64,000 bases of DNA, taken from positions 1 through 64,000 of the forward strand of contig JAKLKO010000002.1 of the NCBI GenBank assembly GCA_023150615.1, given 5' to 3'. The position numbers were made by a program, and so were the translations under genes. Under the pieces are notes generated by a model that saw nothing but the letters and a program-made list of their open reading frames with translations, was not told the origin of the DNA and made no database searches. This document shows, in pieces, positions 34,461 through 38,365 of the stretch. Numbering within the stretch: the stretch's first letter is position 1; the number at the start of each line of letters is the position of its first letter. This DNA is from Phycisphaerae bacterium (GTDB lineage Bacteria > Planctomycetota > Phycisphaerae > UBA1845 > UTPLA1).

Positions 34461-34488
34461 TTGACCGATAACAAGAGCGTGGTATACT
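34461..34488 (+). promoter_or_regulatory. Sigma-70-like promoter of thrS
   Basis: TTGACC at 34461-34466 and TATACT at 34483-34488 are separated by 16 bases. Each hexamer is one mismatch from consensus, the best promoter seen in the window. Transcription should start near 34495, giving a leader of about 198 bases before the thrS start. Confidence 0.8.
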
Positions 34489-34526
34489 GTTGATCGTCCG
34501 GCGGTTGCGCTTGCGCGCCGCGGAAG

Positions 34527-34664
34527 ACGGCAGATGATGACGACGCGCACATCCTCGTGAGTTGGGCCGTGCGGGATATCCCGGCACCGCGGTGGATGTT
34601 CGCACGAGCGTCGGCATCGTCTGCCGTTTTCTTTTGCGCGTTCGACGCGGTGTGGGTCGAACGC
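34527..34664 (+). promoter_or_regulatory. Structured thrS leader RNA (long helix plus start-proximal hairpin)
   Basis: Helix P1 pairs 34527-34546 with 34608-34627: 20 positions with one G-U and one A-G mismatch. Inside it, 34554-34559 (CTCGTG) can pair with 34603-34608 (CACGAG), and 34569-34575 with 34580-34587 (GTGC+GGG against CCC+GCAC, one bulged G, AUAU loop). A U-rich linker (34624-34635) follows. A second hairpin has a perfect 9-bp stem, 34638-34646 with 34656-34664, and a 9-base loop. No U-tract follows the second hairpin, so control is more likely at translation than by termination. If P1 is melted, GCGTCG at 34608-34613 can instead pair with CGACGC at 34643-34648 and open the second hairpin. 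Confidence 0.65.
34534..34560 (+). CDS. Threonine-rich leader peptide upstream of thrS
   Basis: A nine-codon frame reads Met-Met-Thr-Thr-Arg-Thr-Ser-Ser-stop. Three of eight sense codons are Thr (ACG, ACG, ACA). GGAAG at 34522-34526 stands 7 bases before the first ATG, a good ribosome site. The frame lies between the promoter and thrS, and the Thr codons fall within the 5' strand of a long helix (34527-34546 pairing with 34608-34627). This is the classic layout of a ribosome-mediated attenuator leader, comparable to the Phe-rich pheM leader before E. coli pheST. There is no expression evidence; the call rests on codon content, ribosome site, position and overlap with the hairpin. Confidence 0.6.
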   Translation: MMTTRTSS

Positions 34665-34692
34665 AGTCTGACGTGGATCCAGTCGGTTCCGA

Positions 34693-36906
34693 ATGCTCAG
34701 AATCAAGCTCCCTGACGGAAAAGTCCTCGAGATGCCGGATGGCAGCACGCCGGCCGACGTGGCTGCGCGCATCGGCCCGGGTCTGGCGCGGGCGGCGATC
34801 AACGCGCGGATCTCGATGGCGGGCGGACCGCCGCGCCACATCGATGTTGCGACGCCGATACCCGCCGATTGCGAGTTGTCGATCATCACGCTGAAGGGCG
34901 ATGATGCCGATGCGATGAGAATCCTCCGCCACAGCACGGCCCACGTGATGGCCGAGGCCATCTGCCGTCTCTTTCCCGAAACCCGGCTCGTGTACGGCCC
35001 GCCGGTCGAGAACGGCTACTACTACGACATCGACCTGCCGCGTCGGTTGACGCCGGACGATTTTCCGGCGATCGAGGCGGAGATGGCCAGAATCGTGAAG
35101 GAAGATCGCCCGTTCACGCGATACGAACTGCCGCGCGCCGCGGCGATGAAGAAGCTGGCGGCCGAGGGGAACCCGTACAAGATCGACAACGCCGAGCGTG
35201 CCGAAGGCGACGTGCTCAGCTTCTACGTCACCGGTCCGGAACCGGGCAAGTACTGGGAAGACCTGTGCATGGGAACCCACCTGCCCAGCACGGGACGGAT
35301 CGGCGCGTTCAAGGTGCTCAACGTCGCCGGGGCGTTCTGGCACGGCGATGCCACGAAGCAGCAGTTGCAGCGCGTTTACGGTACGGCCTTTCCGTCGAAG
35401 AAAGAACTGGATGCCTACCTGACGCAGCTCGAGCAAGCGCGCGAGCGCGATCATCGTCGCATCGGACAGGAACTCGGCCTGTTCACGATCGACCCTCTGG
35501 TCGGCAGCGGCATGGTCCTCTGGAAGCCGAAGGGGGCGGTGATCCGCCTGCTGCTCGAGGAGCATTTGCGCGGCCTGCTGCGCCAGGCTGGATACCAGCC
35601 CGTGTTTTCGCCTCACGTCGGGCGCTTGGAGCTCTTTCGTACGAGCGGACACTTCCCGTACTATCGCGACTCGCAGTTTCCGCCGCTTTACGAATCCGAC
35701 ACGGCGCGAATCCTCAACGAACTCTGGATTGCGGTGCTGGAACGCGGCGACGCGAAATCGATCTCGACGATCGAGGAGCAACTTCTGGAGGAGCTTCGGG
35801 CCGCGAATCCCGGGCTGTGGCAGACTCTCGTCGGCGATCCGCAGGCCCCCGAGGCCCGACGGCTGAATCCGGCGCCAGGCCATCAGCAGCACAATCTTGC
35901 CGTGATCCGCGAGCACCTTCGGGTCGAGGATGGATTCCTGCTCAAGCCGATGAACTGCCCGCTTCACGTGCGCATCTACGCCAGCGAGCCGCGGAGCTAC
36001 CGCGACCTGCCCGTGCGCCTTGCCGAATTCGGGACCGTCTATCGCTACGAACAATCCGGCGAACTCTCCGGAATGACGCGGGTTCGCGGCTTCACACAGG
36101 ACGATGCGCACATCTTCTGCACGCCGGAGCAGTTGCAGGACGAGCTGGCGGGGTGCCTGAAACTGACGCGCTACGTCCTCGAGGTCCTCGGTCTCTACGA
36201 CTATCGCGTGCGGATCGGCCTGCACGATCCTGCGGACCCGAAGTTCATCAAGAACCCGGAAGGTTGGGCGATGGCGGAAAGCGCCGTGCGGCATGCGGCT
36301 GAGCAATCGGGCATCTCCGCGACCGAGGAAGTCGGCGAGGCCGCGTTCTACGGGCCGAAGATCGACTTTCTGGTGAAGGACTGCATCGGCCGGGAATGGC
36401 AACTCGGGACCGTGCAGGCCGATTACAACCTGCCCGCGCGCTTCGAGTTGGAGTACATCGGCAGCGACAACCGGCCGCACCGTCCGATCATGGTGCATCG
36501 CGCGCCATTTGGGAGCATGGAGCGGTTCATCGGGATCCTGATCGAGCATTTCGCCGGGGCGTTTCCGGTATGGCTCGCGCCGGTGCAGGCGGTGATCGCG
36601 TCGATCAGCGATCGCAGCGCCGACTACGCGCGGCGCGTCACGGCGCAGCTTCGGGACGCGGGCTTCCGCGCCGAGGTGGATGATTCGCCCGACAAGATCG
36701 GGCCGAAGAAGCACCGGGCGCGCTCAATGAAGATCCCGTACATCGTCGTCGTCGGAGAGCAGGAGTGCTCCCGCGGCACGTTGAACGTGAATGATCGGGA
36801 CGGCCGATGCATCGGCGACCTTTCGGTCGCCGCCTTCATCGACCGGCTTCGAGTGGAGAGCCGGCCAAAACGCGTGACGACGCGCGCTTCGGCGGCGGTG
36901 GAATAG
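34693..36906 (+). CDS. thrS: Threonyl-tRNA synthetase
   Basis: Class II synthetase charging tRNA-Thr. Order: TGS domain (1-65, MLRIKLPDGKVLEMPDGSTPAD), editing domain with HSTAH near residue 79, catalytic core, anticodon-binding domain (about 635-725). Zinc ligands are kept: Cys in MNCPLH, His in DDAHIF, His in VHRAPFGSMERF. MNCPGH of E. coli is MNCPLH here. At 737 aa it is about 95 longer than E. coli ThrS; most of the extra is an insert of about 80-90 aa (about residues 330-412) between YYRDSQFPPLY and FLLKPMNCP. ATG 34693 gives the expected TGS start but has no strong Shine-Dalgarno. It leads the thrS-infC-rpmI-rplT operon. Confidence 0.97.
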   Translation: MLRIKLPDGKVLEMPDGSTPADVAARIGPGLARAAINARISMAGGPPRHIDVATPIPADCELSIITLKGDDADAMRILRHSTAHVMAEAICRLFPETRLVYGPPVENGYYYDIDLPRRLTPDDFPAIEAEMARIVKEDRPFTRYELPRAAAMKKLAAEGNPYKIDNAERAEGDVLSFYVTGPEPGKYWEDLCMGTHLPSTGRIGAFKVLNVAGAFWHGDATKQQLQRVYGTAFPSKKELDAYLTQLEQARERDHRRIGQELGLFTIDPLVGSGMVLWKPKGAVIRLLLEEHLRGLLRQAGYQPVFSPHVGRLELFRTSGHFPYYRDSQFPPLYESDTARILNELWIAVLERGDAKSISTIEEQLLEELRAANPGLWQTLVGDPQAPEARRLNPAPGHQQHNLAVIREHLRVEDGFLLKPMNCPLHVRIYASEPRSYRDLPVRLAEFGTVYRYEQSGELSGMTRVRGFTQDDAHIFCTPEQLQDELAGCLKLTRYVLEVLGLYDYRVRIGLHDPADPKFIKNPEGWAMAESAVRHAAEQSGISATEEVGEAAFYGPKIDFLVKDCIGREWQLGTVQADYNLPARFELEYIGSDNRPHRPIMVHRAPFGSMERFIGILIEHFAGAFPVWLAPVQAVIASISDRSADYARRVTAQLRDAGFRAEVDDSPDKIGPKKHRARSMKIPYIVVVGEQECSRGTLNVNDRDGRCIGDLSVAAFIDRLRVESRPKRVTTRASAAVE

Positions 36907-36945: not shown

Positions 36946-37569
<624 letters not shown>

Positions 37570-37990: not shown

Positions 37991-38365
37991 ATGGCTCGGA
38001 CTCGTACGCACGTCGCGCATCATCGCCGGGTGAAGCGCGTCCTGAAGCGCGCCAAAGGCTATCAGGGCGCCCGGAGCAAGCTCCTGCGCACAGCGCGGGA
38101 CGCGGTTCGACGTGCGGGCGTCTATGCGACGCGCGATCGTCGGGCCCGCAAGCGCGAGTTCCGGGCCCTGTGGATCACGCGTCTGACCGCGGCGGTTCGC
38201 GAGAAGGGCATCTCGTACAGCCGGTTTATCCGGGGATTGAAGCTCGCGAATTGTGACTTGAATCGGAAGATGTTGAGCGAGATCGCGATCCAGGATCCGC
38301 CTGCGTTCGGCAAGCTGATTGAACTGGCGATGCGATTCGCTCCGGGGGCGAAATCGGCGGCCTGA
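37991..38365 (+). CDS. rplT: 50S ribosomal protein L20
   Basis: 124-aa rRNA-binding protein of the large subunit. It has the family start MARTRTHVAHHRRVKRVLKRAKGY (in parts), the central YATRDRRARKREFRALWITRLTAAVR and the end FGKLIELA. In many bacteria L20 represses its own operon by binding the leader ahead of rpmI; the about 200-base infC-rpmI gap could hold such a site, though I could not identify one. A rho-independent terminator follows. Confidence 0.98.
   Translation: MARTRTHVAHHRRVKRVLKRAKGYQGARSKLLRTARDAVRRAGVYATRDRRARKREFRALWITRLTAAVREKGISYSRFIRGLKLANCDLNRKMLSEIAIQDPPAFGKLIELAMRFAPGAKSAA

Follow-up and report, generated by a model that had tools for sequence, protein, structure and literature searches.

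The window, a 64,000-nt stretch of a Phycisphaerae bacterium contig, carries on its forward strand the gene thrS (34693-36906; NCBIfam TIGR00418, 618 bits against a cut-off of 383.65), which codes for threonine--tRNA ligase (ThrRS) and is the putative target of the regulation described here. The next gene is infC (36994-37569), followed by rplT (37991-38365). On the side opposite thrS, the leader is adjoined by an ABC-transporter ATPase gene on the reverse strand; hence, the terminator described below is not the end of a forward-strand gene. A sigma-70-type promoter (TTGACC-16-TATACT, with TG before the -10 element) is located on the forward strand at 34461-34488. It had been called near-consensus in the initial annotation of this DNA, and it does match the consensus at 10 of 12 positions (0.2 expected per shuffle of the region) and has counterparts in relatives.

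Downstream of the promoter we found the short frame MMTTRTSS (34534-34560, forward strand) and GGAAG (34522-34526), its candidate ribosome-binding site, both as originally reported; Thr frames occupy the matching place in relatives. The codons are ATG ATG ACG ACG CGC ACA TCC TCG TGA, with the start at either 34534 or 34537, Thr codons at 34540-34542, 34543-34545 and 34549-34551, and the stop codon at 34558-34560. A small GC-rich hairpin (GGCGGTTGCGC/GCGCGCCGC, 34500-34521) lies between the expected transcript start and the putative attenuator, and a short hairpin between promoter and attenuator is frequent in other members too.

The frame begins inside the 5' arm (34522-34546) of a long hairpin on the same strand, an arm that also includes the ribosome site and the first Thr codons, and that pairs with the 3' arm at 34608-34632, as indicated by both folding and covariation. 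The upper part (34547-34607), which holds the leader stop codon and an inner stem, is poorly conserved. The 20-position helix of the initial annotation (34527-34546 with 34608-34627) is present, but its true extent is larger: 34522-34539 pair with 34615-34632 and, past an A.G mismatch (34540.34614), 34541-34546 pair with 34608-34613. The segment 34524-34638 has a folding energy of -59.8 kcal/mol (z = -4.6), equaled by none of 200 dinucleotide shuffles. Contrary to the earlier statement that no U-tract follows, the tract TTTTCTTTT is found at 34627-34635, its first bases pairing with the foot of the 5' arm. With the stem running straight into this tract, the structure looks like a ~110-nt intrinsic terminator that separates thrS from its promoter. 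A second hairpin (GCGTTCGAC/GTCGAACGC, 34638-34664, forward strand) is outside the conserved unit and is absent in G010, the closest ThrRS relative in the set.

Conservation of the leader hairpin

We collected strong hairpins of 88-120 nt with a U-tract before thrS, which gave a set of 39 genomes of the order, belonging to families f1, f2, f5, f6 and f8; these were chosen partly for the U-tract, so its frequency among them is biased. The typical unit is a hairpin of ~100-112 nt plus the U-tract, holding a frame of 4-15 codons with at least one Thr codon, and at least two Thr codons in 28 of the 39. The frame starts a median of 16 nt inside the 5' arm. The distance from its stop codon to the U-tract has a median of 69 nt (62-76 nt in 34 of 39, with extremes of 31 and 76), while the U-tract precedes thrS by a median of 55 nt. 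A promoter resembling TTGAC(C/G)-16/18-TATA(T/C)T was found 27-81 nt before the foot of the hairpin in 28 of the 39 genomes, against 1.0 expected from shuffles, which indicates that the promoter and the leader hairpin accompany thrS.

The alignment of the 39 leaders (A1) has a consensus stem of 18 pairs, 17 of them with changes on both sides, so that the covariation proposed early on as a check of the hairpin was indeed found. Paired cells amount to 85.4% (71.6% when shuffled, at most 47.3% when slid) and the covariation score is 0.552 (0.285 shuffled, at most 0.191 slid), figures that are inflated to some degree because the structure was derived from A1 itself. In the first conserved ACN codon, all 39 leaders have the C (column 33) and the third base covaries with the base opposite, giving G-C, A-U or G-U pairs (column 34 with 117), as expected of a stem that must also encode Thr.

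A covariance model built from A1 and run over 120 whole genomes gave matches at E ≤ 2.2e-4 in 44 of them, one per genome and all just upstream of thrS. Five of the 44 (G090, G104, G093, G040 and G065) were outside the model set, and all five hold a short frame with a Thr codon in the stem (MTHATC, MTHTAW, MMRGTC, MTRVTCSS and MTCTDS). A weaker match, in G102, is also before thrS; the best match of G016 (E = 0.0017) is off the thrS contig segment and is probably due to chance. The element upstream of thrS is real, conserved and specific to this gene.

Threonine codons upstream of thrS

Starting from ThrRS, we located thrS in 150 related genomes and gathered the upstream DNA of 117. Our main count covered the 99 of the same order whose sequence upstream of thrS is complete, and used dinucleotide shuffles as background. 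Thr-rich short frames were present in 38 of the 99, against 3.8 ± 1.5 in the shuffles (z = 17), indicating that the short Thr frame reported at this locus is not a product of chance; their recurrence in related thrS leaders had been another check suggested in the initial annotation. Thr was the only one of the 20 amino acids enriched, the next best reaching z = 2.3. Examples are MMTPQTAL and MIYTRRTK in the family of the window (f1), MKPTTRTTE, MTRTTL and MRSTTRTTAS in f5, and MTRTA, MTHTTA, MTRRTC, MLVTRTF and MTRSTC in f8.

With a looser count, a Thr frame precedes thrS in 40 of 101 genomes of the order, in none of 36 planctomycete genomes outside the class, and in only 3 of 84 sequences upstream of pheS, trpE and the homoserine dehydrogenase gene hom within the order. 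The differences are significant (Fisher p = 9e-10 for the comparison with the other genes, 4e-7 for that with thrS from outside the class), with p values that ignore shared ancestry. Across phyla, 3 of 63 thrS upstream sequences, mainly from other phyla and among the matches listed, carried a Thr frame. Nor did we find comparable leaders for other amino acids in the same order: Phe frames before pheS were not above chance, there were no Trp frames before trpE, and Thr frames before hom were at background level.

In the 39 members, the leader Thr codons are ACG (50), ACA (29), ACC (5) and ACT (2), and those of seven genes of the window are ACG (70), ACC (27), ACA (6) and ACT (6). It looks as if ACA were favored and ACC avoided in the leader frames, in a comparison between genomes that differ.

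A putative transcription attenuator

The conserved Thr frames, the covarying stem and the location before thrS only lend strong support to the central idea of the initial annotation, a Thr leader peptide that senses the charging of tRNA-Thr through where a ribosome stands on the hairpin's 5' strand. We consider it likely (probability of about 0.8) that this region is a ribosome-mediated transcription attenuator that senses tRNA-Thr charging and controls thrS, probably together with the genes behind it. RNA polymerase would start at the promoter (34461-34488) and make the leader, and a ribosome would initiate on the frame of 7-8 codons. When Thr-tRNA is scarce, the ribosome would wait at the Thr codons just past the start and cover the 5' arm (34522-34546), so that the terminator (34522-34546 with 34608-34632, plus the U-tract) could not form and thrS would be transcribed. 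When Thr-tRNA is plentiful, the ribosome would go on to the stop codon (34558-34560), only a few codons further, and leave the 5' arm free again before or during synthesis of the 3' arm; the terminator would then form and end transcription. We infer termination, the waiting of the ribosome and the dependence on threonine from the arrangement and conservation of these parts.

Two features of leader-peptide attenuators can be recognized in the sequence, a short frame rich in cognate codons and a putative intrinsic terminator between the frame and the gene. A third, the exclusion of the terminator by a ribosome waiting at cognate codons, is predicted by a fold model in which a footprint of 28 nt around the P site was kept unpaired and the pairs between the final 18 nt of the 3' arm and the 5' arm were counted. 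With the 5' arm free, a median of 15 pairs is predicted. The median drops to 3 if the first Thr codon occupies the A site, and is 10 with the ribosome at the last Thr codon and 14 once it has come to the stop codon; for the leader of the window, the same model predicts 18, 0, 10 and 17, respectively. With the Thr codons right after the start and the stop codon only a few codons later, the layout fits a switch that works by shielding and release. No separate antiterminator helix is conserved in leaders of the window type, be it in A1, in the fold model or in the pairing with downstream sequence. We lean, by no great measure, towards a minimal and previously undescribed layout of thrS control in planctomycetes of this class, in which a frame of 5-8 codons, often beginning Met-Thr, is itself the 5' arm of the terminator and shielding replaces the antiterminator, derived from the classical attenuators with Thr runs that are still found in sister orders.

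Several observations count against the attenuator. An obvious ribosome-binding motif is absent or weak in most relatives. Some members have a single Thr codon in the frame (e.g., MTYIA and LITHNDK). In G034, G037 and G105, the frame chosen by our script is at another place and is perhaps not the true one, those of G034 and G037 being doubtful. G104, one of the five independent matches of the covariance model, has no U-tract, and most f1 relatives keep the promoter and a frame of 7-8 codons without a clear terminator, which within this family is found only in the window and in G010. Finally, a 5-bp hairpin (34612-34626) abuts the U-tract even with the 5' arm covered, and might then terminate weakly.

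Alternative explanations

The members with one Thr codon, and the fact that in most of them the start codon alone lies within the stem, could also be understood if any ribosome on the short frame shielded the stem, in which case thrS would follow the overall rate of initiation and translation and the Thr codons would play a minor part. Such a general sensor of translation seems unlikely, since it does not account for Thr being singled out among the 20 amino acids, for the fixed first two positions of the Thr codon (C in 39/39) with a wobble base that covaries with its partner, or for the long Thr runs of the sister orders. Control at the level of translation was the mechanism put forward in the initial annotation: the waiting ribosome would free 34608-34627, which would pair with 34643-34648 and open the hairpin next to the thrS start. 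GCGTCG and CGACGC are certainly complementary and the hairpin at 34638-34664 is strong, but a U-tract follows the first stem and the CGACGC element (34643-34648) is missing beyond the U-tract of G010. Moreover, pairing of the 3' arm with the sequence past the U-tract was predicted in 26 of 39 leaders, against 25.2 of 39 with the downstream sequence shuffled. We consequently regard this translational version as quite improbable, and the claim that control has to be translational finds no support.

The thrS operator of Escherichia coli is the established case of autoregulation by ThrRS, and a tRNA-like operator could in principle serve the same purpose here; in families f1 and f4, CGU triplets do appear close to the stop codon as well as in the 3' arm. 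However, these triplets sit in stems, A1 contains no conserved anticodon-like loop, the top of the hairpin varies freely, and autoregulation would explain neither the Thr reading frame nor the U-tract, all of which makes it highly improbable. The work of Springer and co-workers on the E. coli operator is cited in PMC7373986. As for T-boxes, which control thrS in almost all Firmicutes (PMC2494555), none was found in the single planctomycete genome covered by that study. A search of the window leader against Rfam at E values of up to 1 gave no match, a chance one inside thrS apart, and neither did a search of 13 related loci at the gathering scores, so that a T-box or another catalogued RNA element is hardly credible at this site.

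Leaders in related families and sister orders

Outside the typical unit, leaders are diverse. In f1 (L001-L012, L017 and L018), frames located 140-235 nt before thrS are often TTG-started and end in Thr-Ser-stop (ACATCGTGA). In f4 (e.g., L130, L152 and L147), the frame starts ~160-175 nt before thrS and often ends in Glu-Thr-stop, as in MLTRGVET, MQRGIET and MDHGNET, within a conserved GAAACGTGA context that is paired with a GTTTC element and has no clear U-tract; a single Thr as the last codon is unusual.

Six genomes from other orders of the class carry long Thr runs instead (MARPVLLTTTTTTTPANRPRG, MARTTTTTTTTQTASCG, MPRPTTTTTTTTETRPRG, MNTLTTTTTATTTTLTRGAGGL, VDVRNSRFTTTTTTRSGFAGR and MPKQPIGVTMMRATMRTVTTPVPYTVAGGR), followed in five or six of the six by a short, separate terminator with a U-tract. 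In three of them (G124, G141 and G143), a ribosome waiting in the Thr codons is predicted to give a fold other than the terminator predicted with the ribosome at the stop codon. These sister-order leaders look like classical attenuators.

Relation to known attenuators

Leader-peptide attenuators are classically those of the trp, his, thr and pheST operons of Gammaproteobacteria. The leader described here shares with them a promoter, a short frame rich in cognate codons and a terminator with a U-tract before the first gene, and the position of the ribosome would likewise decide the outcome. It differs in that the frame has 5-8 codons in most members and is found inside the 5' arm of the terminator itself, in having no separate antiterminator that we could see, and in the phylum and target gene. 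Also similar are the ilvB leaders of Actinobacteria, whose frames overlap terminators (PMC1262725), and the ilvB-II motif of Corynebacterium, reporter-tested in Bacillus subtilis (PMC10272879). The shared trait is a short frame of cognate codons overlapping or beside a terminator hairpin with a U-run; however, those leaders serve branched-chain amino acids and ilvB, and ilvB-II is a two-stem structure with an antiterminator. In Streptomyces coelicolor, replacement of the codons before ilvB had no effect, according to work cited in PMC1262725.

With regard to threonine, a leader peptide (thrL, MKRVRPFLETTPGFVPAR) has been proposed before thrS of Streptomyces lividans in part of PMC8079986. As presented there, it belongs to another phylum, has 18 codons with two Thr, is leaderless and lacks a clear terminator, and the proposal comes without comparative support in that part of the source. 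A Thr-run frame (MAMLPTTTRTTTTRTTIRGRRRAG, followed by a stop codon) is also found before thrS in the alphaproteobacterium Porphyrobacter sp. SLTP (L044), ~215 to 136 nt upstream of the gene (locus 2287-2363) and in one record; it resembles our leaders in its position and codons, but is long, Thr-rich and of the classical type, unlike the short frames described here. Leader-peptide attenuation has been described in Bacilli for hisS (PMC2965389), and in Proteobacteria and Actinobacteria. We found neither a planctomycete thrS leader nor any other planctomycete leader-peptide attenuator in the literature searched, a search that was incomplete and on which we base no claim of priority.

Both the cell plan of planctomycetes and the coupling of their transcription and translation have been debated. 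If the attenuator proposed here is real, these bacteria would sense an amino acid by coupled transcription and translation, and the leader would provide a direct reporter for the coupling. Such tiny frames escape gene callers. They would also make up a natural gradation, with long Thr runs and separate terminators at one end and a single shielded stem at the other, that could help to trace how attenuators simplify.

A peculiarity was also observed in the ThrRS of the window, whose residues ~338-412 (~75 residues of the catalytic part) align to none of the solved ThrRS chains; for instance, 1nyq aligns to residues 2-337 and 413-703, with none between. ThrRS matches from the same order mostly run through this stretch, and those from other orders of the class are interrupted there.
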